Origin: a virus
Reading direction: 5' to 3' (one strand)
DNA length: 64,000 nucleotides
IMG/VR virus record: IMGVR_UViG_3300025128_006599
Coordinates: 1-64,000 of that record
The notes under the pieces were generated by a model. The model was not told the DNA's origin and ran no database searches. It saw only the letters and a program-made list of their open reading frames with translations. This document shows, piece by piece, positions 5,400-64,000 of this stretch. Every line of letters starts with the position of its first letter. The stretch's first letter is position 1. The position numbers and the translations under genes were made by a program.

Positions 5400-5555
5400 T
5401 GTAATTACATTTCTCGGTTTTTTATTATTTTCCGTAAATAATTTATATAAGTGTTGATTAAGAATAGCAGAACATTTTGTTCTGTTTTTCTTTGCATGCC
5501 CTTTGAACCAATCCATCAAATCCTCATCTAAAGTGAAATTATATCTTTTTTTCAT
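5376..5555 (-). CDS. ribbon-helix-helix regulator-like protein
   Basis: A 59-residue protein and the only convincing minus-strand gene in the window. An N-terminal strand (KKRYNFTLDEDL) is followed by two short helices separated by a turn (MDWFKGHAKKN, then KCSAILNQHLYKLF). This is the MetJ/Arc/CopG ribbon-helix-helix pattern, so a dimeric DNA-binding repressor is likely. I chose the ATG at 5555 (read leftward), which has AAAGGG upstream; an ATG 18 bases earlier also exists. The 3' end overlaps the end of the SbcCD fusion by 24 bases, convergently. It is divergent from the 5655 fibre gene across a gap containing a 9-bp inverted repeat, which is a natural operator candidate. Confidence 0.6.
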   Translation of the reverse strand: MKKRYNFTLDEDLMDWFKGHAKKNRTKCSAILNQHLYKLFTENNKKPRNVITSVPTKFD

Positions 5556-5592
5556 TTTACACCCTTTATACACATTTCATATACATAAATAA

Positions 5593-5631
5593 CTATTGAA
5601 TTTTTATATTTTCAATATTTATATTCAATAG
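5593..5631. promoter_or_regulatory. inverted repeat, possible operator
   Basis: CTATTGAAT at 5593-5601 pairs perfectly with ATTCAATAG at 5623-5631 across a 21-base AT-rich spacer that contains TATTTATA. It lies between the divergent ribbon-helix-helix gene and the fibre gene. It could be a repressor site or an RNA hairpin in the fibre leader. The sequence cannot decide between these. Confidence 0.35.
5616..5623 (+). promoter_or_regulatory. TATTTATA element, candidate late promoter
   Basis: An exact TATTTATA 39 bases upstream of the fibre-gene ATG. The same or nearly the same octamer recurs 31-45 bases before five other genes that begin after a gap. Read on the minus strand it is TATAAATA, the T4 late-promoter core, so its orientation is ambiguous here. 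Confidence 0.35.
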
Positions 5632-5654
5632 ATATATTTTATTTGGAGCAATAG

Positions 5655-8600
5655 ATGCCAATCACAAAAAGGTTTAATGAACTACAAGGTTTAGCCGATA
5701 TAGATGTATATTTTGAAGAAGAGGGTTTAAATTCTAATTTTTTCAATATCACAGAATTTCCTGATCCATTACAAGTAGGTAAAAATTCATTCCTTATCGC
5801 GGGTTCAGAAAAATTATTAAATTTTACAGAATTACAAATTGATATAGTTGATTCTGCTGGAAACTCTATATATCATGAACCCGTTCGAGAATATCTTGAA
5901 GGTAATATGAGAAGAATCTCAATTGAGGTATACGATACTAATGCACCTGGTAGTGGATTTTTACATATTGTTGGTGAGGCACATACAGAACGAGTTGATG
6001 TTCCAAATGAATGGCACGGTGTCTATAATGTAAGATACTCAAGACCGATTTCAATTAACACTACTCAAGTAAACACTCAACCAATATTTTTTTACAAACA
6101 GCCTAAAATTCGTGCCAGAGAAATAACTAAAGCATTTATAGACGAACTACCAGCATCTGCATCATATTTTATAACAGGTAGTGTAACCGTTACTGCAACC
6201 ACACCAGGTACTCCGATTAATCCAAAAGAATTTGATGATGACTTAGATGATAAAAATCCAGCTGTTACTTTTACAGGAGAGGACAGACCTGGTAAATTTT
6301 TAGATACGTTCAAAAACAAACGAGAAAACAAACGAATAAGTATTAACCAACCTACTGTTTTAGCTTTAGGTCGTGTATCAAGACGTGCTTCTCCAGAAAC
6401 ACCCACACATACAATTACAATACAAGGATTAGAATCTTCTCCAGAGAATGTACAAGATAAATTAACGAGTGCTTTTGTTGGTGGTAAATTAAAGATAGAG
6501 TCACCTCAAGTAGATGAGTCTACATACTTTATTGGTAGTAATTCACGAATAACAGTAGATTCCACCTACGTAACAAGAATTCAAGAAGTATTAAATTCTA
6601 CCACGATAATACCTGAAACACCTTTTGTTGCAGAGGTACACTCATCTCCACAAAGTGACAATAAAACTGGTTTTAAAGATCCAAACTTTACCGATTGGGA
6701 AGTATGGCCAAACCTTCAACCTACTGGTAAAACAATAGAGTCTTTGGAACCGAAAGATGTACAACCTCCACAACCAGATACACCACATATAGATGAAACA
6801 GGAGCGACTTGGTTATGGGGAGAGGTGACAGACCCATCGAGAATACCAAAAGAAGAAGAAGCGGGTGGAAACGCTAATATAAAATATTATGGTTGGAATG
6901 AATCAGGAAGTATAAGTCAGGAAGTAGCAAATTCTACGATTCGTAGAGAAACCGTTAGTATGTTACCAAATAATAATGTTACAATGTCAATTGTACCGAC
7001 ACCTGAGAAAAAATTAACCTCAACTTATCTTAGAAGTTATGCTGATTTCTCGATTATAAATATGAGAACATTTAGTGGTGATATTTTTAGAGTAAAGATA
7101 TATGGAAAGATAAGAGGTGGTTTAACTGATTTTGAATTGTTATATGATTCACCTATAGAATCACCAGAAATTTTAATTGATCCATTTAGTGTTGATGGAT
7201 TTACAAATGTTGGATATTTTTATACTGGTTCTGTTATATCTGATTATTGGGCATCTTCTTCAAATAGTGTCATAAATCAAAATGATGATTATTTAGTTGA
7301 TGGTGTATTGATGAGTGGTTCTAACTACGAAGTAGATGAAGAAGTTGAGTTTTTCACTACAGCATCTTACCAACTCGAACGAAACATTTCTTATGCAGTA
7401 GGGTTTGATTCCTATTATATAAAACAACCAAAGAAAGTTACGGTTACAACGGGTGGTTCCGAATCAACAAAAATAATAGATAGAGCAGAACTAAAGGTAT
7501 TTTTAAGTGGTTCTCGAGCAAAAGACGGAACAGGAGATATAGGTGAAGACATTTATCTTGGAAAGGTTAGTATTCCTGATGGCCCTGCAACAGATGAGGG
7601 TGAACAAAAGGGAGTTTATCAAATTTTCAAAAGTGCTCCTAAACACTTCCCAAGTGCTCAGTTAAAATTTGTTGCAACTGCAGGTCAATGGGTTATAAAA
7701 GATGTTAGTATAAAACCTACTGAGGAAACAAATTTTAGTCCTGATTATTTTAGAACTATAGTTCCACTACCCTTTATGCACAAACGTCCTGCAAAAATGG
7801 ACTTTTTGGTTGAGTTTTATGACGTGGATGGAAAGATTGCGGATTCATTTGGATTTTTAGAAAACTTTAGAATTGTAGGAGCACCACAAGTTATACAAGG
7901 TGATAATAACTTATTGAGTGGTTCTATGTATCTTGGAAACTTACAAGGTCAAGGTATCGAAATACACGGTGGTTCAGCCTATTTACGTTCTATTGGATAT
8001 GAAGGATTTGAAGCTACGATATCAAGTGGTAGTGGTGGATTTATGATATTTAGTGGTTCATTAAGTGGAAGTCGTGCCGATGGAACTCAACTTTTACATA
8101 CAACCGAAAGTTATGAGGGTGTTGGATTAGAGATGGTGGATGCACATGGTTCAGTTGATAGATATTTGAGATTTAGAACTAGTCCAAGTATTTTTGAAGT
8201 TGTAACTGATACATTCTTTTTAGGTAGTTCAACACAATTCCTTAGTGGTAGTAATCAACAGATAGAGATTAGTTCAAGTAATTTCCATTTACAACCCGAT
8301 GGTGATGTGGTGATGCAAGGTACTATTACAGCAGAAGCTGGTGGTACTATTGGTGGATTTACTATCAATTCTGATAATTTGGCTGCAACTGATTTTGTAT
8401 TGAATACAACTGATAAATCTCTTTCTATGGGTAGTGGTAATTCAATATTTCTTGCAGACGCTGATACAGGTATACAATTAGGACATGCAACATTTGCAAG
8501 TGCACCATTTAGTGTAACATCAGAAGGAGCTATTAAAGCAACATCTGGTGAAATAGGTGGATTCGGATTAGGTGGTTCTACTATTAGTAGTTCAAACAAT

Positions 8601-21336: not shown

Positions 21337-23484
21337 ATGAATAAATACACTATGTTTGATTCGTTACTTAACGAAATAACCTCAAGTAATTCCAAATGGC
21401 CATCACAAAATGTCGGTGTTATGGTTAGTTTTGATTATGTACCGATGACTATGGGTTCTTATGGATATGCAGATCCTATTGCAGGAACTATATTTGAGAG
21501 TGGTAGTGGAGAATCTCAAACAGTAAAGACACCTGCAGTTAGAGGTTGGGATGAACACGAGTATAAGATTTACGAAATGAATACAAATCCATATCATTGG
21601 ATTAATTCATCTTCTCTTTATGGTCTTTATGATAGAATTACAACTTATGTTAGTGAGAGTAATTATGATAATGTTGTGTTATTAAAACACGTACAACCTA
21701 AAGGTCAAAATCCAAAAGAAGAAACCGTAACATTGTTTAGTCAAAGTCTTGCAACAAAAGATATTAGTTTAGAAGAGGTAGATTATTTATATTTTTCAGA
21801 TACTCATTTACAGGCAAGTAACTCATCAAGTTTTTATCTATTTCAAGAATCACCTTACCAAACTAATACTGGATTAAAACATATAGTTAGTGGTAGTTTT
21901 GAAAAAACAGAATTCCGTAGGATTTTAGGGAACTCTTCAGTTTCTTCATCATTAATACCACTTTGGGATTCAGATAATCCCACGACAAGTGTTTGGGGTC
22001 CTGATTATGTTATTAAAAATAATTCCGTTGATAATTCATTGGCAATTGGTGGTCAGATAATTAAAAGCTATAGACATACTGGTAGTAACGCAGTCGTAGA
22101 TACTTACGCTAGTTATACAGGAAGTCAGTATGTTGTAGAACAATTTATTCTACCTGAGTTCGTATCAGCAAGTTTAGCTTCTGCATCTTCTGATGCATTT
22201 GTGGATAAAATTGATTACCCATATGGAACAACAACATATTTAACAACACCACAAAAAAACATTTTACTACGAGATGATTGGGCTAGTGGACTTGGAAATA
22301 AAAGAACAAATAGAGTTAAAATGACTTCTGATGGTAGTACTTGGAAACAAATCTCAACACACCATTCAAAAGTAGTTCCTTCAGGTTCATTAGTTAAAAC
22401 ACCAACTGGAGCAACTGCGATATCTGAATTGAACATTGGTGATACTGTTTCCTCTTATTTACCAGTTTCAATGTCTACAGAGGATTATGGTTATTTGGAT
22501 TATAGTACAAATACCTTAGTTGGTTCTACTTCAGATACTTCGGAAGTTGTGAATATCACATATGGTAAAGAATTTACCTATACACATATCTACTATGAAG
22601 TAGGTGGAGAGGAAGTTCGAATTAGTGTATCTACTGAACATGCAAATCTTTTCATAAAAGATGTCGATACTAATATATGGGGATGGAAAACACCACCATT
22701 TTTAAAGGCTGGTGATAAGATGTTAAATACAAATGAACAAGAAATTGAAATCACCAGAATGATGGAGAACGTTACGGTAAATGAAGACTATTATGCGTTA
22801 GATGTTGAGGATACGGACACGTATTTTGTTGATGGTATATTGATTCACAATGGTAATAAAAAAGGTACACCATCGGATGGAGCATATCAATTAGATTATT
22901 ATGGAACTGGATGGTCTGGTACACTTCAACATAGAGTTTACGCTCGTGATGCAAGTTGGGGAGCAAGACAAGTATACTCTGATGCTGGTGGTAGTTGGTG
23001 GAACGTTCCGTCAAGTACTTGGAGGTCTTGGAAAACAACATATACTGCAACACAAGATGGAAGTGGTTTTGCATCTACAGTCGATGGTGGTAGTTATGAT
23101 AATATTGCGATGTATAATTATCACGGAAATGGATACTCATTTAGTTCGTTTACTTGGACAGGTGTGGTAAGTGCTCAGAACAATTGGGGCCCTTCAAGTT
23201 ACACTGCATTCTTTGCACATTATACAGGTCAAGGTACTTCAACTTTAGTGGTGGCACTAAGTGATTACAGAACAAAAACGAATGTGGATTGGATTGGAAA
23301 ATCCGAATCTGGTCTTAATATTTATGAGTTCTCATATAATTGGGATAAAGATACTCGTTATCAAGGAGTTGTTGCACAAGAACTTTTAAATACTAAATAT
23401 GAAGATAGTGTAGTTCAAATTAATAGTGGATATTTAGGTGTAGATTATAGTAAATTGGATGTAGATTTCAAACAGGTTAATTAA
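21337..23484 (+). CDS. tail-fibre protein: Hint-like insert and S74 chaperone
   Basis: A 715-residue structural protein. Residues 1-345 are strand-rich, with Ser/Gly segments. About 346-505 form an internal Hint-like domain: PSGSLVKTPTGA and ISELNIGDTVSS (block A), VSTEHANLF (block B T-x-H) and YFVDGILIHN (His504-Asn505). The first position, normally Cys, is Val346, and Gly506 follows the terminal Asn. Splicing by the standard route should therefore be impaired. A Trp/Tyr/Ser-rich fibre module comes next. Residues 642-715 are a peptidase S74 intramolecular chaperone: LSDYRTKTN (Ser642, Lys647), IYEFSYNW and YQGVVAQEL. The S74 domain trimerises fibres and cuts itself off. Confidence 0.8.
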   Translation: MNKYTMFDSLLNEITSSNSKWPSQNVGVMVSFDYVPMTMGSYGYADPIAGTIFESGSGESQTVKTPAVRGWDEHEYKIYEMNTNPYHWINSSSLYGLYDRITTYVSESNYDNVVLLKHVQPKGQNPKEETVTLFSQSLATKDISLEEVDYLYFSDTHLQASNSSSFYLFQESPYQTNTGLKHIVSGSFEKTEFRRILGNSSVSSSLIPLWDSDNPTTSVWGPDYVIKNNSVDNSLAIGGQIIKSYRHTGSNAVVDTYASYTGSQYVVEQFILPEFVSASLASASSDAFVDKIDYPYGTTTYLTTPQKNILLRDDWASGLGNKRTNRVKMTSDGSTWKQISTHHSKVVPSGSLVKTPTGATAISELNIGDTVSSYLPVSMSTEDYGYLDYSTNTLVGSTSDTSEVVNITYGKEFTYTHIYYEVGGEEVRISVSTEHANLFIKDVDTNIWGWKTPPFLKAGDKMLNTNEQEIEITRMMENVTVNEDYYALDVEDTDTYFVDGILIHNGNKKGTPSDGAYQLDYYGTGWSGTLQHRVYARDASWGARQVYSDAGGSWWNVPSSTWRSWKTTYTATQDGSGFASTVDGGSYDNIAMYNYHGNGYSFSSFTWTGVVSAQNNWGPSSYTAFFAHYTGQGTSTLVVALSDYRTKTNVDWIGKSESGLNIYEFSYNWDKDTRYQGVVAQELLNTKYEDSVVQINSGYLGVDYSKLDVDFKQVN

Positions 23485-43839: not shown

Positions 43840-44855
43840 TGAAGCACTATTTAAAAAATATAAAAAGAAAATTTGATACAGATGATAAATCTAAGTATGA
43901 TTTTGTATTGAATCAAAGTGAAAGAACACAACCGATACCCGATTTTGCAAAGTTTTTACAGACTATTACTCAAGAAGATTTTTTTTATTATCCAAATACT
44001 GAAGAATTTAAATTTAAACTGGGAATGTGGTATGGTGTACAAACTAATCAGATTTTTTTAAGTGCTGGTTCTGATATAGGAATAAAGTCTGTTTTTGAAA
44101 CGTTTACAGATGGTGGTAGAGTTGTAACTTCAAATCCATCATTTCCAATGTACAAAGTGTATAGTGAATTGTATCAATGTGAATACTTTGGAATACCACA
44201 CGAAAAGGATTACACGATATCTATGGAAAAGATATTGTCCAATATTACACACGATACAGATTTAGTTATTTTGGCAAATCCAAATAGTCCAATGGGAGAG
44301 TATAAATCTTTCGATGAAATACGAATATTATTAGAACAAGATGTACCTGTATTAATTGATGAGGCATACATAGAATTTACCGATAAAGATAGTGTGTTAA
44401 AATACATTCACGAATATCCTAATTTAATTGTTACAAGAACTTTCTCAAAAGGATTTGGAGCAGCAGGATGTAGAGTTGGTTGTGTGATTTCACATGAAAA
44501 TAATATTGAGTTGATAAGTAAATTTAGGCATATGTATGAGATTACAGGAGTGTCTATGAAGTATTGTGAATTTTTATTGAATAACCACAATTTGGTTGAT
44601 ATTTATATAGAGAGTGTAAAGAAAGAAAAGAAAAAATTAGTTTCAATGTTAAATGGTTATGATGTCATAGATTCTAATTGTAATTGGATACATTTTAATA
44701 CAAAAGATGATAATTTAAAAACTAAACAAATATTTGATAAACATAAAGTTTTGGTTAAGTATTGTAAACTTCCACACGATGATAGAAAAAATTGGTGCAG
44801 ATTAACAATACAACCAAATTTAACAAAAGAAAAATTTATAAAGGAATTGTTATGA
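43839..44855 (+). CDS. PLP aminotransferase (HisC-like, class I/II)
   Basis: A 338-residue fold-type I aminotransferase. ILANPNSPMGEY (Asn147, Asn149), LIDEAYIEF (Asp174, Tyr177), TFSKGFGAAGCRVG (the PLP Lys204) and Arg212 match the histidinol-phosphate aminotransferase group, as does the length. In glycan clusters these enzymes transaminate keto sugars or small phosphorylated carbonyls. The C-terminal RLTIQP has the usual carboxylate Arg. I chose the ATG at 43839, after TAGGAG; a GTG 3 bases earlier is too close to that RBS. It overlaps the transketolase gene by 4 bases. Confidence 0.8.
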   Translation: MKHYLKNIKRKFDTDDKSKYDFVLNQSERTQPIPDFAKFLQTITQEDFFYYPNTEEFKFKLGMWYGVQTNQIFLSAGSDIGIKSVFETFTDGGRVVTSNPSFPMYKVYSELYQCEYFGIPHEKDYTISMEKILSNITHDTDLVILANPNSPMGEYKSFDEIRILLEQDVPVLIDEAYIEFTDKDSVLKYIHEYPNLIVTRTFSKGFGAAGCRVGCVISHENNIELISKFRHMYEITGVSMKYCEFLLNNHNLVDIYIESVKKEKKKLVSMLNGYDVIDSNCNWIHFNTKDDNLKTKQIFDKHKVLVKYCKLPHDDRKNWCRLTIQPNLTKEKFIKELL

Positions 44856-45685
44856 ATAAGAAATTTCTAAAGAAAAAACGAAATCAAATCATAGAAGATA
44901 TGTTTGAAATGTGTATTAAGGCAGGTGATGGTCACGTTACTTCGTGTCTTTCTTGTGCAGATATAATGACCTTATTGTTTTATGGTGGATATGTTAATCA
45001 TAATCCTAAAAATCCACAATGGAATAAAAGGGACAGATTTATATTGAGTAAGGCTCAGGCAAGTCCTATTTTTTATACTATTTTAGCAGACAGAGGTTAT
45101 TTTGATAAAAAAGAAATGGATAAGTTTGCACAACAAGATGGAATATTTGGAGTTCATTTACAAAGTGATGTACCAGGTGCAGAAATATCTGCAGGTTCAC
45201 TTGGACACGGATTTGGATTGGCCTCTGGTATTGCGTTAAGTGCAAAACTTAATACAGAATTGTATTTGACTTATTGTTTGTTGGGTGATGGGGAACTATA
45301 TGAGGGTTCTGTATGGGAAACTGCAATGTTTGCATCACATCATAGATTAAATAATTTAGTTGCTATTGTAGATAGGAACTCACAATGTACTCTTGACTTT
45401 ACAGAAAATATTGTTAAGTTGGAACCAATTGAAGATAAATGGAAATCATTTGGTTGGGAAGTTAAACGAGTTGATGGACACAATTTGAAAGAATTACAAC
45501 GTGTATTCAAGTATGTAAGGGCTAGAAGAAGTGATAAACCTTTAGTGATTATAGCAGATACTGTAAAAGGAAAAGGTATTGATTATTTATCATATAAACC
45601 ATTATGGCATGGTGGAACACCAATTAAAGATGAAGATGTGAACGCATCAAGAAAAGATTTACAAAGGAGTGTTCAAAATGGGTAA
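44852..45685 (+). CDS. transketolase, N-terminal (TPP-binding) subunit
   Basis: A 277-residue protein matching the first half of transketolase: GDGHVTSCLSCADIMTLLF, HLQSDVPGAEISAGSLGHG, and the TPP/Mg motif LLGDGELYEGSVWE (GDG at 145-147, with Asn176 in DRNSQ). It pairs with the next gene, which supplies the second half, as in archaeal and some bacterial two-gene transketolases. The pair would move two-carbon units between sugar phosphates, for instance to make a longer-chain or branched sugar. I chose the ATG at 44852, which overlaps the previous stop; the earlier ATG at 44792 runs through the aminotransferase gene. Confidence 0.85.
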   Translation: MNKKFLKKKRNQIIEDMFEMCIKAGDGHVTSCLSCADIMTLLFYGGYVNHNPKNPQWNKRDRFILSKAQASPIFYTILADRGYFDKKEMDKFAQQDGIFGVHLQSDVPGAEISAGSLGHGFGLASGIALSAKLNTELYLTYCLLGDGELYEGSVWETAMFASHHRLNNLVAIVDRNSQCTLDFTENIVKLEPIEDKWKSFGWEVKRVDGHNLKELQRVFKYVRARRSDKPLVIIADTVKGKGIDYLSYKPLWHGGTPIKDEDVNASRKDLQRSVQNG

Positions 45686-46619
45686 AAATACCAAAAGTAC
45701 TATTTTAAATCAAAAATATAGTCAAAGAGATGCATTTTTTACAAAAGTGTATGAAATGATGAAAGACGATAGTGATATTGTTATAGTTGTAGCAGATCAA
45801 GGAGCACCAATATTTGATAAGGTAAGACGAGATTTTCCTCATAGATTTTTTAATGTAGGAATTGCAGAACAACAAGCCGTTCTACTTGCATCTGGATTGG
45901 CCAAAGAAGGTAAAAAAGTTTTTGTTTATGCAATTTCAACATTTATGATAATGAGATGTTATGAACAAATAAGAGTTTCTCAAGGTGTGATGAAATTACC
46001 AATCACGATAGTTGGAGTTGGTAGTGGATATAGTTATGATGATTCAGGCCCAACACATCATATGTTAGAGGATATTTCTATTATGAGAGTTTTACCACAT
46101 ATGACAATTAATAGTATTACAGATAATGTAATGGCAAAAATGATAGCAGAAGAATCTGTAAATATGAATACACCAAATTATGTTAGATTGGATAGACATA
46201 TAAGACCAGATATTTATAAAGATGATGACGATCTTTCATTTGGTTATAATGTTTTAGAAGAAGGTACAGATGGTTATTTTATTTCAACGGGCATAATGAC
46301 TGATGTGGCAATACAACATTATGATGGAAAATTAGGTATAATTGATTTACATACCATTCCTTGTCACGAAAGTTCCCTTTCAGAAATTATACAGGATAAA
46401 AAAGTAATTACACTTGAAGAACACTTTTTGCCTGGTGGTTTAGGAAGTTATGTTTTAGAGATTATTTCAGATAACGATTTAAATACAAGAGTAAGACGAA
46501 TAGGATTAAAACAGGCATACATTTATCGTTATGGTGGTAGACAAGATAATTGGGATTATCATGGATTAAAATCCTCAAATATTATTAAAATAAAGGATGA
46601 GTTTCTTGAGAGAATATGA
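45678..46619 (+). CDS. transketolase, C-terminal subunit
   Basis: A 313-residue protein matching the pyrimidine-binding and C-terminal domains of transketolase: VVADQGAPIFDKV, FFNVGIAEQQAVLLASGLA (with the catalytic Glu), YDDSGPTHHMLEDI, then RLDRH and a final domain with IDLHTIPCHE and LEEHFLPGGLGSYV. It completes the enzyme begun by the preceding gene, which it overlaps by 8 bases. I chose the ATG at 45678 because AGGAG lies 8 bases upstream. The next gene overlaps by 4. The two-subunit layout in a phage is unusual. Confidence 0.85.
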   Translation: MGKNTKSTILNQKYSQRDAFFTKVYEMMKDDSDIVIVVADQGAPIFDKVRRDFPHRFFNVGIAEQQAVLLASGLAKEGKKVFVYAISTFMIMRCYEQIRVSQGVMKLPITIVGVGSGYSYDDSGPTHHMLEDISIMRVLPHMTINSITDNVMAKMIAEESVNMNTPNYVRLDRHIRPDIYKDDDDLSFGYNVLEEGTDGYFISTGIMTDVAIQHYDGKLGIIDLHTIPCHESSLSEIIQDKKVITLEEHFLPGGLGSYVLEIISDNDLNTRVRRIGLKQAYIYRYGGRQDNWDYHGLKSSNIIKIKDEFLERI

Positions 46620-50497: not shown

Positions 50498-51355
50498 ATG
50501 ATTAAACTAAAAGATTTACTTGAAGCCAGTAAAACTGGTACAACATCCTCATCTGAATCACTTGGTGGGTATAAAGGATTTATAAAACCCGAAGATTTTG
50601 ACGCTTATAAAAAAGATTTAGCAAAAAAACTAAAACTAATATTAGCAGAGGGTGTTAATGATCCTGGTATATTCAAGGCCGTATTTCTTGCAGGTGGGCC
50701 TGGTAGTGGAAAAACCTATGTAGTGAAACAAATCTTTGGAATACCTGATAGATTTAATATCAGTATGAGTGGTATGAAGATGGTTAACTCAGATAAAGAG
50801 TTAAAATATTTGTTAAGAAAATACGGATTCGGTACAGATTTAGATAAGATGCCAGATGAGGTATTTGATGATTTGACTACACCTGGTAAGAGTGGATTAA
50901 GAAAGTTTTCAAAAGAACTTACTAAACAAAGAATGAAACTATATCAACAAGGTAAGTTGGGAATGATTATAGATGGTACAGGCCATGACTTTCGTAAGAT
51001 ACAAACCATGAAAAAAATGTTAGAAGATGATGGATACGACACTTACATGGTATTTGTAAATACATCATTAGAGGTGGCACAAAAAAGAAATCAAGAAAGA
51101 GATAGAATATTACCACCAAACTTATTAGAAAAGAGTTGGAAAGATGTTCAGAAGAATCTTGGAAGTTTCCAAGCATTATTTAATAATAATTTCGTGATAG
51201 TTGATAATTCAAAACATTTATCCGAAGAAGAAGCGGAGGCAAAATTTGTTCCATTGGTTACTAAAGTTATTAGAAAATTTGTGGCAAAACCCATCAAGAA
51301 CAAACTTGGAAAAATGTGGGTTACAAAACAAAAACGTCTTAATAGGAGAAAATAA
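50498..51355 (+). CDS. zeta-toxin-like P-loop kinase with leader-like N-terminus
   Basis: A 285-residue P-loop protein. Walker A is FLAGGPGSGKT (Gly66-Thr73). GMIIDGTGHDFRKI (near 155-168) and VFVNTSLEVAQKRNQERDR match the zeta-toxin/AAA_33 kinase layout, in which Arg residues of the lid bind ATP. Zeta kinases phosphorylate UDP-GlcNAc; this phage form may target a nucleotide or polynucleotide instead. The first residues are MIKLKDLLEAS. LLE|A at 7-10 fits the T4 prohead-protease site, as in T4 internal proteins whose leaders (e.g. IPIII) end IAE|A. The protein may therefore be packaged and injected. The C-terminus is very basic (KNKLGKMWVTKQKRLNRRK), compatible with DNA association. Confidence 0.65.
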   Translation: MIKLKDLLEASKTGTTSSSESLGGYKGFIKPEDFDAYKKDLAKKLKLILAEGVNDPGIFKAVFLAGGPGSGKTYVVKQIFGIPDRFNISMSGMKMVNSDKELKYLLRKYGFGTDLDKMPDEVFDDLTTPGKSGLRKFSKELTKQRMKLYQQGKLGMIIDGTGHDFRKIQTMKKMLEDDGYDTYMVFVNTSLEVAQKRNQERDRILPPNLLEKSWKDVQKNLGSFQALFNNNFVIVDNSKHLSEEEAEAKFVPLVTKVIRKFVAKPIKNKLGKMWVTKQKRLNRRK

Positions 51356-51356
51356 A

Positions 51357-51839
51357 ATGCTTACAACATTTGATGAAATAATAGAAGTTACTCTACACCA
51401 CGAAGGTGGATATGTTCACGATCCAAAAGATTTAGGTGGTGAAACTAATTTTGGTATAGCTAAAAGATTCTATCCTGATGTAGATATCAAGAATCTCACA
51501 AAAGAGGGTGCAAAAGAAATTTATAAAAAAGATTATTGGGATAGAAATAAAGTGGATGATTTATCTGAAGATTTAAAACACATCTTTTTTGATATGTGTG
51601 TGAATCAAGGTAGAGGTACAGCAGTAAAAATTTTACAACGAGCATGTAACGCAAAAGGTGCTGATTTAGCAGTTGATGGTGGATTCGGGCCAGGTACAAG
51701 AGCAGCAGTAGAAACTTACAAACCATCATTGGAAAGAGTTCGTTGTTATAGAATGAAACATTATTATGATTTAGTGAACAAGAAACCTGAACAAGAAAGA
51801 TTTTTGTTTGGGTGGTATCGTAGAGCTTTATCAGTTTAA
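51357..51839 (+). CDS. GH108 endolysin (zliS-like)
   Basis: A 160-residue lysozyme. The GH108 domain starts at once: VTLHHEGGYVHDPKDLGG (catalytic Glu16), then ETNFGIAKRFYP, as in the zliS family of N-acetylmuramidases that cut peptidoglycan. The second half, DMCVNQGRGTAVKILQRACN and VDGGFGPGTRAAVE, is the PG_binding_3 domain usually paired with it. I chose the ATG at 51357, behind TAGGAG; an ORF extension upstream to 51201 lies inside the kinase gene. There is no signal peptide or membrane segment, so a holin is required. I found no certain holin near it. Confidence 0.88.
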   Translation: MLTTFDEIIEVTLHHEGGYVHDPKDLGGETNFGIAKRFYPDVDIKNLTKEGAKEIYKKDYWDRNKVDDLSEDLKHIFFDMCVNQGRGTAVKILQRACNAKGADLAVDGGFGPGTRAAVETYKPSLERVRCYRMKHYYDLVNKKPEQERFLFGWYRRALSV

Positions 51840-52139: not shown

Positions 52140-55100
52140 ATGAATAAATTAACAGAATGGTTAATTAAAGATTTAATTGATGAGGGAGTTGAATTACCAA
52201 TTAAAGTGGGTGATACCGTTTTGATGGGTAGATTCAAAAATAAACGAGTCAAAATAAAATCAATTAATTTTAATGAAAAGGGTGATTTGTTAATCAACAA
52301 TCGTCCTGCCTTAAAATTCAGAGTGGTTAGTTCCCAAACTACAGAGGCTGCTAGAATACCTCGTAAAAAAGGACAACATAGAGGTTCTTCATCTCATTCA
52401 GATTTATACACCGATGAGAATCCAAAGGGTACAATCAAAGGATTAAAGTTTGCAACCGTAAAGGATGCACAGGCCTCTGTATCTAAAATAAAAGGTAGTG
52501 GTAAGAAACACGCTCATAAAATACAGGCGGCGGTTGCTATGGAACAACGAGCAAAAGAAATGGGTAAAAAATCCGCTGCAGCTGTTTATAGAAAATTCAT
52601 CAACCAAATGAAAAAGAAAACCAAAGCAAAGAATGAAGTAGGGTTAGGTTCAACTAAAAAAGTTGTAGGTAGTAATGTTTATACCTTTGGGCCAGATTGG
52701 ATACCAACAAGTTTAGCTCAAAGAAAGAAAATGAAAAGACTACACAATAAATTAAATAAGTCTATACGAGAAGATGTTAATTATTTGGTAAATGAATTTG
52801 ATTGTGGTTGTCAAGAACTCTACGAGATAGAAAAAATTAATGAAAAGTGGAGTGCAAAATACAAAAAAAGTATTAATTGTAACAACCCTAAAGGATTCAG
52901 TCAACGAGCACATTGTCAAGGTAGAAAGAAAAATGAAGAGTTTGGTGCACCAGCAGGTGTAATTCCATCACCAAGTCGTAAGATGGTTAAAAAAATGAAG
53001 AAAAAGGGAAATACTTCAGTTCCTTATGGTAGTGGATATGAAAAGATTGAAGAACGATTTGCAGTCAGAGGTAATAAAGTAGAAAAGTTTATCACTGGTA
53101 AAAATCTTACACATAAAGGTAAGAAATATAAAGAGATAGATTTTGAATTAGTAAAAGTAGATAATCCTAAAAAATTAGTTACACTTAGAATCTTAGCACC
53201 AAAAAAATTATTTGGTCAAGAAGTACCTGTGAGATTCCAAACACTTAGAAGAGGCCCTTTTCTCAAAACCGATACAAGTAAAGTTCGTGAGGGACTACCA
53301 ACTAAAACAACTGATAAATTTAAAAAATTAAAAAATAAACCAGAAACAGATGCTGGAAAGGATTTTTCTGTACATCATGGTTATTCTATGAGTGCTCCTA
53401 TGGGTAGTCTTTCTGAACCAGACACTTATGATTGGGATGATGATGACAGAGAAATCGGTGGAACTCAAAAAGAAAAAGATAAAAGGAAAAAAGGTTACGA
53501 ACCAGTAAAAGAAGACAGAACAAAAATCAAAAAAGTAGTTGGTATTTATGGTGGTAGATTTCAACCATTTGGCCCACATCACAAAAAAACATATGATTGG
53601 TTAAAATCAAGAGTTGATGATGCATATATCACAACATCTGATATCAAGAAACCACCAAGACACCCAATGAACTTCAATGAAAAAGTTCGTCATATGGTCA
53701 AGATGGGTATTCCTAAAAATCGAATTGTGAAAGAAAAATCACCATATATCGCTAAAAACGTATTAAAAAAGTATGATGAGAAAACAACTGCTGTTATTTA
53801 TATTTTTGGTAAAAAAGACGCTGGTAGATTATCAGGTGGAAAGTATTTTAAAGATTATGACAAGAACAGAGGTAACATTTTAGGATATGGTGAACATGGT
53901 TATATTCTCACAGCACCTCACGTATCAATCAAAGTCGGTGGTAAAGAAGTAAGTGGAACTGTAATGAGAGATTTACTCGGTTCACCAGAAAATGAAAAGG
54001 GTAGAGAAAAATTATTCAAGCAGGCATTTGGATACTTTGATAAGGGTATCTATAATATGATGACAAATAAATTTAAAAAATTATACGAATTTTATCAACA
54101 AGATTCTGTAAAAGAAATAATCAAAGAAGTTAGTGCTTTAGGGGCTACGATAACTGCAGGTGATTTAGATGATGAGGGATTGTATGATTTCTTTAATTCA
54201 TTCGCTGATTACAAAAGAGTATCACCAAAACATGCACAAATTTTAGGTTGGGACGTAATAGATGATATTATTGATTTTGAGAATGCAACAGATCCTGGTC
54301 TTGATTATTCAACCTCAACCGTAGATAGAATATCAACCGTAACATATGGTAGAACTATAAATCAAAACACAAAGAATACAGATAGTGTGGATAATCCATT
54401 TCCTAAATATAAACAACATATGAATCAAATGATTGATAAACTTGGTTGGGAAATCGTAAAATTCTTTGGTGAAAAGGAAATAAAGGCAAAGAAAATTAAA
54501 GATTCTGATACACACGATATGGGAACTGCAACTGCAGGTAGTGGTAATACAAATAAACCAGCAACTCCAGATAAACTTAAAAAGATACAAGAGAATTTTC
54601 AAAGAGATGTGGGGTTACTGATTGAGGGTGGTGCTTATGGACATATGTCACATCCATTTGATGATAATAATCTGACGTTTTCAGATTTGAAACAGATAAT
54701 TATTAATGGTATAGGTGGAAAGTTAGACAGAGAAGATGGGGTTACAGAGAAACTCGATGGACAAAATCTAATGGTAAGTTGGGTTGATGGTAAATTAAAG
54801 GCAGCTAGAAACAAAGGTCATCTCAAAAATCGTGGTAAAACAGCTCCAACCACAAGTGGAGTAAAGAGTATGTTTAGTGGTAGAGGTGATATACAAAAGG
54901 CCTTTGTAGGTGCGATGAAAGATTTAGAAAAGGCAATTGGTAAATTATCAGATAAACAAAAAGAAAAAGTATTTGGTAATGGAACCAAGTGGATGAATTT
55001 AGAGGTTATGTATCCAGCAACAGCAAATGTAGTAGATTATGATGTGGCAGAAATAGTGTTTCACGGCACGATAGAATATGATGATAGTGGAAGGGCAGTA

Positions 55101-55853
55101 GGTCAACCTAAAGATAGTGCTCGTATGTTAGCTGGTATGATAAAACAAGTAAACCAAAGCGTTCAAAAAATGTTTAGGATTGGAAAACCAAACTTTTTAC
55201 AAGTTCCCAAATCTCAAAACTTTGGTAAATTAAAAGGTAAATTTTTACAACAAATAAATAAATTACAATCTACATATTCATTAAAAGATACAGATAAGTT
55301 GGGTGAATATCATCAGGCATATTGGAGAGAGTATGTATTTAATGCATCTAAACAATTTAAAGTTAGTTTGAAACCAAATCAATTTGTTAGTTTGGTTAAT
55401 CGTTGGGCATATTTTGATAAGTCATATAAGATAGCGGATATTAAAAAAGATTATAAAGATAGTCCAAAATTTTTAGATTGGATATTATCTACAGATAAGA
55501 ATGATGTTCAAAAGATTTTTAAAGATAATATAAAACCATTTGAAGTTTTATTCTTTTCAGTTGGTGCTGAAATATTGAAAAATATAAGTGGGTATATGGC
55601 AGCCTCACCAAATAAAACGGTACAAAAAATGAGAAAAGAAGTCATTCAGGCATTAAGGGATTTGAAAAGTGGTGGTAAGGTTGATAAATTAAAAAAGTTA
55701 AAAATACAAATTGAAAAATTAGAAGCAATTGGTGGATTAGATGCAATTGTTCCAAGTGAGGGAGTGGTGTTTAAGTATAAGGGTAAGACTTATAAGTTTA
55801 CAGGAGCATTTGCACCAATCAATCAGATACTTGGTAGTTTGAAATTTGGATAG
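52140..55853 (+). CDS. NMNAT-like plus ligase-like nucleotidyltransferase protein
   Basis: A 1237-residue multidomain protein. Residues 1-16 end in LIDE|G (Ile13-Glu15), a fit to the T4-type prohead-protease site. Residues ~240-262 hold a Cys pair (NCNNPKGFSQRAHCQGRKK). At ~295-305 is PYGSGYEKIEE, also found in the 63081 core protein. Residues ~465-640 form an HxGH-type nucleotidyltransferase resembling NMNAT (GGRFQPFGPHHK, SGTVMRDLL). Residues ~868-1225 resemble a covalent ligase: VTEKLDGQNL (Lys871), WMNLEVMYP, and a C-terminal EGVVFKYKGKTYKFTG. No OB fold is evident. It could repair or modify RNA/DNA or handle NAD. The leader suggests that it is packaged. Confidence 0.65.
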   Translation: MNKLTEWLIKDLIDEGVELPIKVGDTVLMGRFKNKRVKIKSINFNEKGDLLINNRPALKFRVVSSQTTEAARIPRKKGQHRGSSSHSDLYTDENPKGTIKGLKFATVKDAQASVSKIKGSGKKHAHKIQAAVAMEQRAKEMGKKSAAAVYRKFINQMKKKTKAKNEVGLGSTKKVVGSNVYTFGPDWIPTSLAQRKKMKRLHNKLNKSIREDVNYLVNEFDCGCQELYEIEKINEKWSAKYKKSINCNNPKGFSQRAHCQGRKKNEEFGAPAGVIPSPSRKMVKKMKKKGNTSVPYGSGYEKIEERFAVRGNKVEKFITGKNLTHKGKKYKEIDFELVKVDNPKKLVTLRILAPKKLFGQEVPVRFQTLRRGPFLKTDTSKVREGLPTKTTDKFKKLKNKPETDAGKDFSVHHGYSMSAPMGSLSEPDTYDWDDDDREIGGTQKEKDKRKKGYEPVKEDRTKIKKVVGIYGGRFQPFGPHHKKTYDWLKSRVDDAYITTSDIKKPPRHPMNFNEKVRHMVKMGIPKNRIVKEKSPYIAKNVLKKYDEKTTAVIYIFGKKDAGRLSGGKYFKDYDKNRGNILGYGEHGYILTAPHVSIKVGGKEVSGTVMRDLLGSPENEKGREKLFKQAFGYFDKGIYNMMTNKFKKLYEFYQQDSVKEIIKEVSALGATITAGDLDDEGLYDFFNSFADYKRVSPKHAQILGWDVIDDIIDFENATDPGLDYSTSTVDRISTVTYGRTINQNTKNTDSVDNPFPKYKQHMNQMIDKLGWEIVKFFGEKEIKAKKIKDSDTHDMGTATAGSGNTNKPATPDKLKKIQENFQRDVGLLIEGGAYGHMSHPFDDNNLTFSDLKQIIINGIGGKLDREDGVTEKLDGQNLMVSWVDGKLKAARNKGHLKNRGKTAPTTSGVKSMFSGRGDIQKAFVGAMKDLEKAIGKLSDKQKEKVFGNGTKWMNLEVMYPATANVVDYDVAEIVFHGTIEYDDSGRAVGQPKDSARMLAGMIKQVNQSVQKMFRIGKPNFLQVPKSQNFGKLKGKFLQQINKLQSTYSLKDTDKLGEYHQAYWREYVFNASKQFKVSLKPNQFVSLVNRWAYFDKSYKIADIKKDYKDSPKFLDWILSTDKNDVQKIFKDNIKPFEVLFFSVGAEILKNISGYMAASPNKTVQKMRKEVIQALRDLKSGGKVDKLKKLKIQIEKLEAIGGLDAIVPSEGVVFKYKGKTYKFTGAFAPINQILGSLKFG

Positions 55854-58360: not shown

Positions 58361-58738
58361 ATGAAGAATTTAATTAAAATATTATTATTCACGGGAATAG
58401 TTTTTTCACAAGAAAAGACGTATACTTTTACTGAATCTGAAATTTTGGGTTTTACCAAACAGATTACTGATTTACAGGTAAAAGATAGTTTAAACACTAA
58501 AACTATTAAAGACTTGGAATCGATTATCAAATTGTTGGAACAAAATGCACAAACAGATTCACTAATAATTACGAATAAAGACCTTTCGATTGAAGTATTG
58601 AAAGAACGTTCAGAAATATTAGAAAAAAAGGTAAAACTTGTGAAACCGAGTTGGTATGAGAATAAATGGTTATATTTCACTTATGGAGTGATTATGACCG
58701 CGACTTCTGTAAAGCTTGCTGGTGAGATAGTACAATAA
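58361..58738 (+). CDS. secreted coiled-coil membrane protein
   Basis: A 125-residue protein with an N-terminal signal-like segment (MKNLIKILLFTGIVFSQEK, cleavage likely after Ser16 or Gln17), a coiled coil (~30-92), and a C-terminal hydrophobic segment (WLYFTYGVIMTATSVKLA, ~103-120). There is no lipobox Cys, so it is not a classical o-spanin. Together with 58022 it could bridge membranes at lysis. It overlaps the terminase gene by one base (TAATG). Confidence 0.45.
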   Translation: MKNLIKILLFTGIVFSQEKTYTFTESEILGFTKQITDLQVKDSLNTKTIKDLESIIKLLEQNAQTDSLIITNKDLSIEVLKERSEILEKKVKLVKPSWYENKWLYFTYGVIMTATSVKLAGEIVQ

Positions 58739-60315
58739 TGTCTACTAATCCAACACCACTAAAAGAAGTAATCAAAACTGAATATGTGAAGTGTGCAAAA
58801 GATCCTGCATATTTTATGAAAAAGTATTGTATGATTCAACATCCAATTAAAGGTAAAATACCATTTAGTCTATATGATTTCCAAGAATCTACTGTAAATG
58901 AATTTCAAGATAATCGTTTTAATATAATATTAAAGGCAAGACAACTTGGTATATCGACTGTTACTGCTGGATATAGTTTGTGGATGATGACATTCTATCA
59001 AGATAAAAATGTTCTTGTGATTGCCACAAAACAAGATGTTGCAAAGAATTTAGTAACAAAAATTCGTGTGATGCATGCAAACTTACCGAGTTGGTTGAAA
59101 CAAAAATGTGTTGAGGATAATAAGTTGAATCTTCGGTATGTTAATGGTTCTCAAGTTAAGGCAGTATCATCAGGACCAGAAGCAGCTCGTTCAGAAGCTC
59201 TATCATTGTTGATATTGGATGAGGCAGCATTTATTGATAAGATTGATGATATATGGACTGCAGCTCAACAAACATTAACGACTGGTGGTAGTTGTATTGC
59301 ACTTTCTACACCAAATGGTGTTGGTAATTGGTTTCACAAAACTTGGGTAGAGGCCGAAGAAGGACGAGGATTATTTAACTTTATCAAACTTCATTGGACG
59401 GTTCATCCTGAAAGAGACCAAACTTGGAGAGACGAACAAGATAACTTATTGGGTATGCAGAGTGCAGCACAAGAATGTGATTGTGACTTTATCACTTCTG
59501 GTACTTCAGTTATTGATGCACAAATTTTAGAAGAATGTAAAACCAAAACGGTTAAGGATCCTGTAGAAAAACGAGGAGTGGATAGTAACTTGTGGATTTG
59601 GAAACCACCAAACTATACTAAAAATTATGTGGTATGTGCTGATGTTGGACGTGGTGACTCAGCAGACTATTCTGCATTCCATGTAATTGATGTAGAGAAT
59701 GTAGAACAAGTTGCAGAATATAAAGGTAGAATACCTACAAAAGATTTTGGTAATATGTTAGTGAGTATTTCAACAGAATATAATGATGCCTTACTAATTA
59801 TAGAAAACAATAATATTGGTTGGGCAACGATACAACAAGTAATAGATAGGGAATATCCTAATCTATTTTATACAAGTAAAGATTTACAATATGTCGATAT
59901 TGCTCATCAGATGACAAATCGATATAGAAGTAGTGATAAAAGTATGGTGGCTGGATTCAGTACAACGATGAAAACCAGGCCATTAATTATTGCTAAACTT
60001 GAAGAATATTTTAGAGATGAATCTGTAGTGGTTCGTTCAAATAGATTGGTGGACGAATTATTCACATTCATTTATTTAAATAATAGAGCAGAAGCGATGA
60101 GGGGATACAATGATGACCTCGTGATGTCTTTTGCAATTGGACTTTGGGTTCGTGATACTGCATTAAGATTACGAACTGAGGGAATTGAATTAACAAAAAA
60201 GACTCTTGATAGGATGATGGATGTTGATGGTGTTTATAAACCTGAAGAAAATAAATCTGATTATTGGGATATGGAAGTTAACAAAGAAAGAGAGTCCTTA
60301 GAGTGGCTCTTATAA
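58738..60315 (+). CDS. terminase large subunit (gp17-like)
   Basis: A 525-residue packaging motor. The ATPase domain has Walker A KARQLGIST (66-74), Walker B LLILDEAAFID (Asp161, Glu162) and the coupling motif STPNGVG (190-196). The RNase-H-like nuclease domain has CADVGRGDSADYSAF (Asp302), IENNNIGW (Glu356) and YNDDLVM (Asp459/460), the acidic triad of T4 gp17. It moves DNA into the prohead and cuts concatemers. Its length is slightly shorter than T4 gp17 (610). The portal gene follows after 12 bases, with no tail sheath or tube gene between them, unlike in T4. Confidence 0.95.
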   Translation: MSTNPTPLKEVIKTEYVKCAKDPAYFMKKYCMIQHPIKGKIPFSLYDFQESTVNEFQDNRFNIILKARQLGISTVTAGYSLWMMTFYQDKNVLVIATKQDVAKNLVTKIRVMHANLPSWLKQKCVEDNKLNLRYVNGSQVKAVSSGPEAARSEALSLLILDEAAFIDKIDDIWTAAQQTLTTGGSCIALSTPNGVGNWFHKTWVEAEEGRGLFNFIKLHWTVHPERDQTWRDEQDNLLGMQSAAQECDCDFITSGTSVIDAQILEECKTKTVKDPVEKRGVDSNLWIWKPPNYTKNYVVCADVGRGDSADYSAFHVIDVENVEQVAEYKGRIPTKDFGNMLVSISTEYNDALLIIENNNIGWATIQQVIDREYPNLFYTSKDLQYVDIAHQMTNRYRSSDKSMVAGFSTTMKTRPLIIAKLEEYFRDESVVVRSNRLVDELFTFIYLNNRAEAMRGYNDDLVMSFAIGLWVRDTALRLRTEGIELTKKTLDRMMDVDGVYKPEENKSDYWDMEVNKERESLEWLL

Positions 60316-62221: not shown

Positions 62222-63100
62222 ATGTCCTATAATAAAAAGCATAACAAAATAAAGAATACGGGTATTCTTTTTGAATTACTTACTCGACAAATCACCGTAG
62301 ATGTGTTGAACAACGAAAAAGATAGTTCTTCTATAAAAATTTTAAAAGAATTTTTCAATGCAAATACAGAATTGGGTAAGGAAAATGAACTTTATAAGAT
62401 TTTAACAGAAAAGAAATATAAAAGTGCTAAACACTCAGAGATATTGATTGAAGCTGTCATTAAAAATCGTAGAAAATTATCAAATCGTAGACTAAGAAAC
62501 GAAAAATATAATTTAATCAAAGAAATTAAACGTAGTTACGATACAAAAGATTTTTTCAATACTAAATTACCAAACTATAAAGTCTTGGCATCAATTTATA
62601 ATATATTTGAAGGTGAATCTGCACGTGAAAGTTACGGGCCAGTAATTGAGACCGATAGTAAAGTAGTTGTAATGGAAAATATCACAAATCAATCGTCAAA
62701 CAAGTCAAAAAATCTATCAGAAAAGTCTTACAAATCGTACGAAACACAAGAGGAAGACATTAGACTTTTGACATATCAACTATTAGTTGATAAATTCAAT
62801 AAAAAATATAGTAATCTAAGTGAATCACAAAGAAATTTGTTAAGAGAATACATTAACAATTTATCAAACACTAATTCTTTGAGAGAATTCATAGATGCTG
62901 AAGTTATTAAAATTAGAAAAGTTTTATCACAACACTTAAATAGAGTGGATGATAAAATAACGAAAATTAAACTGACCGAAGCAATTGCTCATACAGATAA
63001 TGCTACGAGTGGGAAACGTGTAAAAGATTCTCACGTTGTATCTTTAATGAGATATTATGAATTAGTGAAGGAATTAGAAAATGTCCACGAAAATAAGTAA
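62222..63100 (+). CDS. putative head/core structural protein
   Basis: A 292-residue basic, helical protein opening SYNKKHNKIKNTGILFELLTRQ. I do not recognise the family; its place between portal and prohead protease, where T4 has the core proteins gp67 and gp68, suggests a head role. It has several (L/I)-x-E|A stretches (ILIE|AV, KLTE|AI) that a prohead protease could cut. I chose the ATG at 62222 because GGAG ends 6 bases upstream; the ATG at 62210 lies over that RBS. It overlaps the next gene by 20 bases. Confidence 0.5.
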   Translation: MSYNKKHNKIKNTGILFELLTRQITVDVLNNEKDSSSIKILKEFFNANTELGKENELYKILTEKKYKSAKHSEILIEAVIKNRRKLSNRRLRNEKYNLIKEIKRSYDTKDFFNTKLPNYKVLASIYNIFEGESARESYGPVIETDSKVVVMENITNQSSNKSKNLSEKSYKSYETQEEDIRLLTYQLLVDKFNKKYSNLSESQRNLLREYINNLSNTNSLREFIDAEVIKIRKVLSQHLNRVDDKITKIKLTEAIAHTDNATSGKRVKDSHVVSLMRYYELVKELENVHENK

Positions 63101-63734
63101 AAAAACATTTAAAGAGTTATTACGAAAACTCATCCAGCGTGAAATAGAGGAAGCATCAACCACTGCTAATGTACCTGGATACGATACACCGAGGGCATTT
63201 GCAGGTAAGGGTACTAAGATGGGTGTACCATTGGATAGAAGAGATTCTATTGCAAGTGGTAGTGGATATGAAAAGATAGATGAGGCAGATGATCACGAAG
63301 GAAAGATGGCAAAGGCTCAGTTAGAAAGAAGTATGGAATATGCTGGGATGATTTACAAAATGATTGGTAATGTTGACACCGATGGTGATGGTGAAGTTAA
63401 TTTTCCATCATGGGTACAATCATATTTGACAAAATCTCAAGATTATTTACAAAGTGTATATAATTACTTAGATGGTAAAGATGGATTAGATGATAAATTT
63501 CAAAAAGAAGAATCAGTAAATGAAGATGCTAAAGACGTAACTAAAGCAAAAAAAATTACACGTGATTTAGAAAAAATTGAAGGTAAATATCGTAAATCTA
63601 TGTATGATTTATCCGATAGATTACAGGCAGATCCTAAAAATCACAAGTTACAAGATGAATTAGTAAGATCATATACAAAGAATGTAACATCTTTCATGAG
63701 AGATATGATTAAAATAACTAAAAGGATGAAATAA
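63081..63734 (+). CDS. putative prohead core/scaffold protein
   Basis: A 217-residue charged, helical protein. The N-terminus is a basic amphipathic helix ending in EIEE|AST (Ile22-Glu24), and GSGYEKIDE|ADD follows (Ile66-Glu68). Both fit the (L/I)-x-E|A sites cut by the T4 gp21 protease. The second resembles GSGYEKIEE in the 52140 protein. Residues ~130-217 form coiled coils. The gene sits directly before the protease gene, which it overlaps by one base (TAATG), as scaffold or core genes do in T4-like phages. Confidence 0.55.
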   Translation: MSTKISKKTFKELLRKLIQREIEEASTTANVPGYDTPRAFAGKGTKMGVPLDRRDSIASGSGYEKIDEADDHEGKMAKAQLERSMEYAGMIYKMIGNVDTDGDGEVNFPSWVQSYLTKSQDYLQSVYNYLDGKDGLDDKFQKEESVNEDAKDVTKAKKITRDLEKIEGKYRKSMYDLSDRLQADPKNHKLQDELVRSYTKNVTSFMRDMIKITKRMK

Positions 63735-64000
63735 TGAAAGAGCTTATAGTCGATTATATTCCATTTGAAGTATCACCACAACAAATAACCGAGGCCATGA
63801 AAGAAAACAATGGTAAGTTAGTTGTTAAGGGTGTATTACAAAGAGCAGATGCGAAGAATCAAAATGGAAGAGTATATCCAATGGAGATTCTACAAAGAGA
63901 AGCAAAGAATTATGATGAGGGATTCATCAAACAATCCCGTGCTATGGGTGAACTTGACCATCCAGATTCATCAGTTGTGAATTTACAAAATGTATCACAT
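63734..64000 (+). CDS. prohead protease (gp21-like), 5' part
   Basis: The first 89 codons of a T4 gp21-type capsid maturation protease; the gene continues past the window. NNGKLVVKGVLQRADAKNQNGRVYP is spread over residues 25-49. The catalytic-His block MGELDHPDSS is at 71-80, as in gp21 and related herpes-type assemblins. It would cut scaffold, core and packaged proteins after (L/I)-x-E. The start ATG overlaps the preceding stop (TAATG) and follows AAGGA. Confidence 0.88.
   Translation, partial: MKELIVDYIPFEVSPQQITEAMKENNGKLVVKGVLQRADAKNQNGRVYPMEILQREAKNYDEGFIKQSRAMGELDHPDSSVVNLQNVSH

Follow-up and report, generated by a model that had tools for sequence, protein, structure and literature searches.

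The DNA analysed here, referred to as the window, comprises positions 1 to 64,000 (64,000 nucleotides) of IMG/VR virus record IMGVR_UViG_3300025128_006599 and encodes a 1237-residue mosaic polyprotein, in which a nicotinamide mononucleotide adenylyltransferase (NMNAT)-like domain is joined to a ligase-like covalent nucleotidyltransferase domain. The reading we favour, at somewhat better than even chances, is that this polyprotein is a head-packaged precursor, processed by the prohead protease gp21, that releases the NMNAT-like and RNA-ligase-like enzymes for RNA-end repair or nucleotidyl transfer in the host. Structure prediction supports both folds, the ligase fold at a modest score, and the analysis also shows conserved motifs, mosaicism at gp21-type sites, separate leader-bearing genes in relatives and a head-gene context. 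The parent record (76,488 bases) is that of a T4-like myovirus with the gene order gp17 terminase, portal gp20, prohead protease gp21, scaffold gp22 and capsid gp23, and the polyprotein gene is placed between a GH108 endolysin gene and gp17. The principal features are given below; complete relatives are a set of 39 complete homologous chains, gathered via the ligase-like domain and a length filter.

52140..55853, + strand: polyprotein open reading frame (ORF), 1237 amino acids (aa), ATG start (ORF list)
52140..52184, + strand: predicted head-targeting leader MNKLTEWLIKDLIDE, aa 1-15, cut E15/G16 ((L/I)-x-E motif; MxxLTEWL leader family across relatives)
53529..54089, + strand: NMNAT-like HIGH nucleotidyltransferase domain, approximately aa 464-650 (profile and AlphaFold/Foldseek; kept in 39/39 complete relatives)
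54627..55850, + strand: ligase-like covalent nucleotidyltransferase domain, aa 830-1237 (motifs, AlphaFold, Foldseek and sub-threshold Pfam)
54750..54752, + strand: codon of Lys871, the predicted nucleotidylation lysine, motif I EKLDG (invariant in the ligase-domain alignment)

Two nucleotidyltransferase folds in one chain

An initial annotation, made from the DNA letters alone, had described an ORF at 52140-55853 of 1237 residues with the motifs GRFQPFGPHH, SGTVMR, KLDGQN with Lys871, LEVMY and EGVVFK, and all of these lie where it placed them. In the NMNAT-like region, GRFQPFGPHH lies at residue 472 and SGTVMR at 605. A family profile of this region matched the archaeal NMNAT 1f9a in the PDB (E 9e-5) with both motifs collinear. 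AlphaFold predicts the region well, and Foldseek matched it to NadM 2r5w (E 3.3e-6, probability 1.00) along with many NMNATs. The C-terminal (I)SxTxxR signature is present as SGTVMR, and its S and R are invariant in the NMNAT-domain alignment of relatives. Single-sequence scans were less informative: Pfam CTP_transf_like matched the NMNAT-like part below cutoff, PHROGs gave no family for the 1237-aa polyprotein, and phmmer searches of the PDB with each domain were unproductive. Purifying selection acts on both domains, with ratios of nonsynonymous to synonymous substitution rates (dN/dS) of 0.11-0.22.

Across residues 830-1237 the ligase-like motifs run EKLDGQN (870; Lys871), ARNKG, NLEVMY (953), EIVFHG, SEGVVFK (1206) and YKFTG. 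Residues E870, K871, D873 and G874, R890 and N891, E955, E1207 and G1208, and K1219 with the T and G that follow it are invariant in relatives down to 37% identity. The AlphaFold model (predicted local distance difference test, pLDDT, 86) places a helical insertion of ~220 residues between motifs IIIa and IV. The top 19 Foldseek matches in the PDB are all polynucleotide ligases, mostly RNA ligases with the Rnl3 type leading; DNA ligases also occur at weaker fold scores. Against the viral model library BFVD, close homologues come first, followed by a gradient to annotated RNA ligases. Pfam RNA_ligase (PF09414) is seen sub-threshold in 43/48 family members (best E 0.0012) and falls below cutoff in the window protein; single-sequence Pfam and PHROGs scans gave nothing for the ligase-like part, and a domain profile search of the PDB gave chance matches only. 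Structure prediction supports the earlier claim of two nucleotidyltransferase folds in one chain, the first by its match to NadM 2r5w (E 3.3e-6) and the second at modest scores. As modelled, residues 830-1237 appear to form a divergent ligase-like family, with no Pfam-level membership, whose fold points weakly but consistently to RNA ligases.

A predicted leader and gp21-type joints

The N-terminus reads MNKLTEWLIKDLIDE, ending in LIDE15 and followed by G16. T4 gp21 cuts after L/I-X-E, and a ten-residue leader is enough to target a protein into the head (PMC9026906). The phage's own gp23 has LIDE64/A65, the same LIDE motif as the polyprotein leader. The proposal that LIDE15/G16 is a gp21-type site is backed by this gp23 site, by a T4-type S77 protease, by the junction statistics below and by separate leader-bearing genes in other phages. 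Predicted gp21-type cuts in the polyprotein include positions 15, 235, 305, 426, 663 and 829.

In an unbiased junction test of 2047 homology-start positions, [LI]xE was found at 499, against 146±12 at random positions; because homology starts are not independent of one another, this contrast is an effect size, not a P value. Control motifs LxD, LxK, LxQ and LxN were not enriched at homology starts. The control [KR]xE rose twofold there, so part of the enrichment is Glu richness. (L/I)-x-E sites occur at 0.71x expectation inside enzymes and at 1.69x outside them. At individual joints, the kinase module carried by many relatives is preceded by hydrophobic-x-E (then GVNDPG) in all 11 of its distinct upstream contexts. 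Before the HSDLYTDENP module stands x-E, then A, in 14/14 contexts, and in 12/14 the second residue ahead of the Glu is hydrophobic. The chain is very probably cut between its two enzymes too, judging by the LLIE829/G830 motif. The initial annotation took it for one double enzyme; both domains do share one ORF, but since this predicted cut falls between them, the polyprotein is better described as a precursor.

Adjoining but separate genes encode the NMNAT-like and ligase-like enzymes in the relatives L089/L090 and L086, and L089/L090 also have a separate kinase. Most of these separate genes bear a short T4-like leader, for example MALLSYTQFLNE, MKYLKSLTEFIRE, MKYVNTFAEFIFE and MKFLKSYEEFLNE. 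Cyanophages offer a precedent for packaging: mass spectrometry of purified S-SM1 virions detected the core protein T4-GC190, annotated as a 'putative citidylyltransferase' (PMC3037559, Sullivan 2010). Its S-SM2 orthologue has the leader MKSFFQFLSE/A and then GRFNPPTVGH, which is a T4-like leader followed by a HIGH nucleotidyltransferase. In the genome context, gp17 lies downstream of the homologous ORF in 95/100 non-redundant loci sampled and a GH108 endolysin gene upstream of it in 30 sampled loci. Packaging of the polyprotein into the head is, by inference, well supported.

Other accounts of the joints have to be weighed against this one. Were the protein an ordinary cytoplasmic multidomain enzyme, with incidental (L/I)-x-E sites and nothing packaged, the shortness of the motif would be explained; we hold this to be very unlikely, given that [LI]xE is enriched at junctions while the LxD, LxK, LxQ and LxN controls are not, that sites are scarcer than expected inside enzymes, that separate genes carry T4-like leaders and that the analogous T4-GC190 was found in virions. 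A structural, scaffold-like polyprotein of the prohead core, cut and largely expelled in maturation like T4 gp22/gp67, with its enzyme-like domains as relics, would account for the LxE-rich, lysine-rich spacers and the position in the head-gene cluster. T4-GC119, a similar mosaic at the analogous cyanophage locus (just upstream of terL), has no recognised enzymes and also speaks for such a role. We nevertheless rate it quite unlikely: no change is seen at the ligase motif residues in relatives as distant as 37% identity, the two domains both have a dN/dS of 0.11-0.22, and other phages retain the complete enzymes as genes of their own.

Further genes with comparable leaders or sites were noticed. 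In L085, positions 3508-5780 (record positions 65507-67779) hold small genes with the leaders MIKLKHILTE, MIKLKSLIKE, MIKLNEILKE and MAKLKDIIKE beside gp21/gp22; by their sequence they are candidates for further packaged internal proteins. At window positions 63081-63734, a 217-aa protein has an EF-hand-like loop and internal KIDE/A and IEE/A sites, and by eye shares a module with cyanophage T4-GC119.

An invariant pair within a variable mosaic

An IMG/VR scan found the C-terminal (ligase-like) domain encoded on at least 591 uncultured viral contigs. Public phage records gave 3 matches among 50,697; two are metagenomic assemblies and one is a cultured phage, Microcystis phage Mel-JY01 (WWT39297.1). 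A query taken from LR756508 found no relatives among the viral contigs. A literature search found no published description of an NMNAT-like and ligase-like pairing; the pairing itself was already in databases, for example in Mel-JY01, whose homologue is annotated 'cytidylyltransferase like protein' without a described function.

The 39 complete chains show 30 domain orders, and the NMNAT-like domain is in all of them, always paired with the ligase-like domain. Around this pair the modules vary: P-loop kinase (18 chains), CCA-adding-type nucleotidyltransferase (NTase; 8), HD, Pol-beta-type NTase, ParB-like and Zn-protease-like. In Pfam terms, relatives' modules are of the PolyA_pol/CCA-NTase+HD and Zeta/AAA_33 kinase types, with a 2H/LigT type near the L166 copy. 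Homologues reach 2415 aa at the same place upstream of terL. Mosaic polyproteins of this sort, with kinase and CCA-adding modules among them, are widespread, a point that goes beyond the initial annotation. The remaining modules of the window protein are as follows.

52185..52343, + strand: small module, aa 16-68, in 35/39 complete relatives, with no Pfam match
52347..52634, + strand: 'HSDLYTDENPKGTIKGL' module, aa 70-165, with TTE/A directly before it; common to cyanophage proteins, e.g. S-SM2 SSM2_109 (T4-GC119)
52653..52772, + strand: linker module ending SIRE211/; a similar segment in L070 ends SIRE/, with the kinase module directly after it
52845..52931, + strand: KWSAKYKKSI...HCQGRKK module, aa 236-264, after KINE235/ (sequence comparison)
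53055..53273, + strand: FAVRGNK module, aa 306-378, after KIEE305/, in 18/39 complete relatives
53292..53417, + strand: GLPTKTTD module, aa 385-426, in 6/39 complete relatives
54129..54626, + strand: middle region, aa 664-829, ending at LLIE829/G830; low pLDDT, poorly predicted

Among the relatives, a Zn_protease-like module (L154 residues 424-546) and a ROS_MUCR zinc-finger/HNH-like module (L088 residues 519-562) sit between the NMNAT and ligase parts. Near the NMNAT-ligase fusion of L166, on a contig binned as Bacillus, positions 1273-1875 encode a 2H/LigT-type phosphoesterase with a leader-like N-terminus and a weak match to the Acb1 family, which acts against the cyclic-oligonucleotide-based anti-phage signalling system (CBASS).

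A proposed role in RNA-end repair after packaging

Phage RNA-repair kits, as reviewed, comprise an ATP-grasp ligase, polynucleotide kinase (PNK), 2H, RlaP and CCA enzyme (PMC7824862). RNA-end repair is the best-supported role for the polyproteins because their combined modules (ligase-like, kinase, CCA-adding NTase, and 2H near the L166 copy) match that parts list. By this analogy the role is plausible.

From these elements we infer packaging, cleavage, ejection, substrates and biological role. The 15-residue leader would direct the polyprotein into the prohead core, where a gp21-type protease would cut after (L/I)-x-E at the leader and at module joints, including LLIE829/G830. The freed NMNAT-like nucleotidyltransferase and RNA-ligase-like enzyme would then be ejected into the host with the DNA. 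There the ligase-like enzyme would load adenosine monophosphate (AMP) on Lys871 and seal or adenylate RNA ends, thereby mending tRNA or other RNA that defence nucleases of the host have cleaved. In sister phages it might act jointly with a packaged kinase (5' ends), a CCA-adding NTase (3' ends) and a 2H phosphoesterase (cyclic phosphates). The NMNAT-like domain would perform an adenylyl transfer coupled to RNA-end work, for example by supplying nicotinamide adenine dinucleotide (NAD+).

A broader form of this proposal, which we offer tentatively and which may well prove too strong, is that a class of marine T4-like phages has an RNA-repair or nucleotidyl-transfer kit that is packaged in advance and released by proteolysis: an obligatory adenylyltransferase-ligase pair, with a new ligase family, and interchangeable kinase, CCA-adding and other modules, by which host RNA would be repaired before phage gene expression. 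An NAD+/NMN cycle may exist within the pair, the ligase using NAD+ and releasing NMN, from which the NMNAT would regenerate NAD+. If the favoured reading is right, the T4 internal-protein mechanism would extend from single small proteins to mosaic precursors in an abundant ocean phage group, and RNA-end enzymes would be deliverable at time zero of infection, ahead of any phage gene expression. The ligase-like family would be new and highly conserved, spanning at least 591 viral contigs, and (L/I)-x-E joints would offer a general way to spot packaged effectors in uncultured phages.

Contrary evidence and alternative targets

Several observations weigh against a packaged kit of RNA-end enzymes. 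The catalytic HxGH signature is replaced in the window protein by GPHH, its first His and Gly exchanged, which may mean altered or lost NMNAT chemistry; we use the name 'NMNAT-like' because of this replacement. The PDB fold matches of the ligase-like domain are modest (E 0.009) with low template modelling (TM) scores of 0.2-0.35, and none of the ligase families is matched by its sequence above threshold. When compared with three phage RNA ligases by hhalign, it aligned at most in the motif I region, or not at all, so membership of the RNA-ligase family is not claimed. Motif V is reduced to one Lys (KFTG). Several large relatives encode an ordinary RNA ligase elsewhere, and the packaged ligase-like enzyme may do something other than an ordinary RNA ligase. 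Finally, at least 22/94 relatives have LLLM/GGAYGH in place of LxE before the ligase domain, so a cut there is not universal. The first description of a ligase-like domain was right at the level of fold and motifs, and profile comparison did not bear out family membership.

Nearly all relatives have G[P/L/I]HH, the GxHH form being present in 58/59 relatives where the motif was found and HSGH in 1/59. Canonical HxGH or TxGH is seen only in L002, L086, L088, L089, L090, L141 and similar outgroups, as GRFQPFHxGH or TxGH. The earlier 'NMNAT/NadM-type' assignment keeps its fold and SGTVMR and is otherwise too specific, in view of GPHH and of the absence of NadV from most relatives' records. These bear on an unlikely alternative, head-packaged NAD+ reconstitution, in which the NMNAT-like domain would make NAD+ as soon as it enters the cell, countering defences that deplete NAD, and the ligase-like domain would be an unrelated passenger or an NAD+-consuming partner. 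The fold is indeed closest to NadM/NMNAT, outgroup copies keep HxGH/TxGH, and salvage of NAD by phages is well established as a counter-defence (PMC9503650). All NadM-bearing phages surveyed in that work carry NadV as well (PMC9503650), yet NadV was absent from 10 of 12 records tested, including Mel-JY01 (deposited as a complete genome) and the 484-kb LR756508, most of the others being fragments; it was present only in two near-identical jumbo-phage records. The GxHH form also stands against NAD+ reconstitution, and the constant partner is a ligase-like domain, not NAD enzymes.

Compared with NadM, NadR and archaeal NMN adenylyltransferases, the domain shares the fold and the GRFQPF and SGTxxR motifs. 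It differs in that the marine T4-like clade has G[P/L]HH where those enzymes have HxGH, NadV is usually absent, and neither a Nudix domain nor a nicotinamide riboside (NR) kinase was detected with it. Classical NadV-NadM salvage was downgraded because NadV is mostly missing. A NadR-type reading of the adjacent kinase, as NMNAT plus NR kinase, is disfavoured: this kinase matches AAA_33/Zeta_toxin, with no NadR-kinase model among its matches. The NMNAT-like partner could serve NAD+ supply, coupling to the ligase or the use of another nucleotide.

The ligase-like enzyme might instead act on something other than RNA, namely nicks in incoming DNA, or a host protein or small molecule by AMPylation. 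The lack of a sequence-level assignment to RNA ligases, the unusual helical insertion, the truncated motif V region and the DNA ligases among weaker fold matches all allow for this. However, the chain ends ~18 residues past motif V, so there is no room for the oligonucleotide/oligosaccharide-binding (OB)-fold domain of DNA ligases and capping enzymes, while RNA ligases lead the fold matches and the companion modules (CCA-NTase, 2H, kinase) are RNA-end enzyme types. We consider such a target improbable.

Relation to known phage systems

The precursor shares with the T4 internal head proteins (IPI-III, Alt) a short leader ending (L/I)-x-E before A/G, an S77 prohead protease with a matching gp23 site in the same phage, and a head-gene context. 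Those are single small proteins or one ADP-ribosyltransferase (ART), whereas the precursor described here has many modules, with cuts predicted to fall between its enzymes, and its packaging is predicted. T4-GC190 resembles it in its T4-like leader and HIGH nucleotidyltransferase and has been seen in virions; it differs in having GRFNPPTVGH, no ligase-like domain and another locus, and its hhalign match to the polyprotein NMNAT profile is weak (probability 23%). T4-GC119 is likewise a mosaic just upstream of terL with the HSDLYTDENP module in common; at that S-SM2 locus, just upstream of gp17, it accompanies a leader-bearing gene (MKTLKQFLKE/T).

Polyvalent proteins combine 2-15 mixed enzymatic domains in one phage polypeptide and are predicted to be injected early (Iyer et al. 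2017, PMC5512222). They too join several unrelated domains in variable order, with recurring Pol-beta NTase, 2H and peptidase domains; the present proteins differ in their invariant NMNAT and ligase-like core and in the gp21-type sites at their joints. The typical polyvalent repertoire (ART, MuF, DNA-modifying and other domains) was not found in Pfam scans, which showed only NTase, kinase, CCA-NTase, HD, ParB, Zn_protease and ROS_MUCR. In the Iyer et al. survey, 2H domains were never seen associating with RNA ligases (PMC5512222). With phage RNA-repair systems (T4 Pnkp/Rnl1; the ligase, PNK, 2H, RlaP and CCA kits of jumbo phages) the polyproteins share a set of enzyme types, here spread over several chains; they differ in appearing pre-packaged and in their divergent ligase family. 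To our knowledge, the known phage RNA-repair kits are made after infection. What is new here is a mosaic precursor variant of T4 internal proteins and polyvalent proteins, with a divergent ligase-like family.

Neighbouring genes

Flanking genes in the window are listed below. The kinase module of the first is fused within the polyprotein in relatives.

50498..51355, + strand: P-loop kinase, separate gene with leader MIKLKDLLE/A and an inner ILAE/GVNDPG junction (Pfam, junction comparison)
51357..51839, + strand: GH108 endolysin gene, upstream of the polyprotein (Pfam)
58738..60315, + strand: gp17 terminase large subunit (Pfam)
63734..64000, + strand: start of the gp21-type prohead protease gene, which runs past the window to record position 64354 (Peptidase_S77, PF03420, E 8e-26)

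A scan for the T4 late-promoter consensus TATAAATA was uninformative, with 25 matches where 16 were expected and none immediately ahead of the polyprotein gene.

Elsewhere in the window, positions 21337-23484 encode a 715-aa putative tail/fibre protein with an S74-like C-terminal end. Its internal stretch SKVVPSGSLVKTPTG...TYFVDGILIHN looks Hint/intein-type by eye and has no Pfam match at 0.001. Window positions ~18000-50000 form a large glycan/small-molecule gene island in the phage late region, with NAD-dependent epimerase, NTP-transferase-like, radical SAM (one B12-binding) and, by eye, FkbM-like methyltransferase genes. Within this island, a transketolase is split into adjacent N- and C-terminal genes at 44852-46619.

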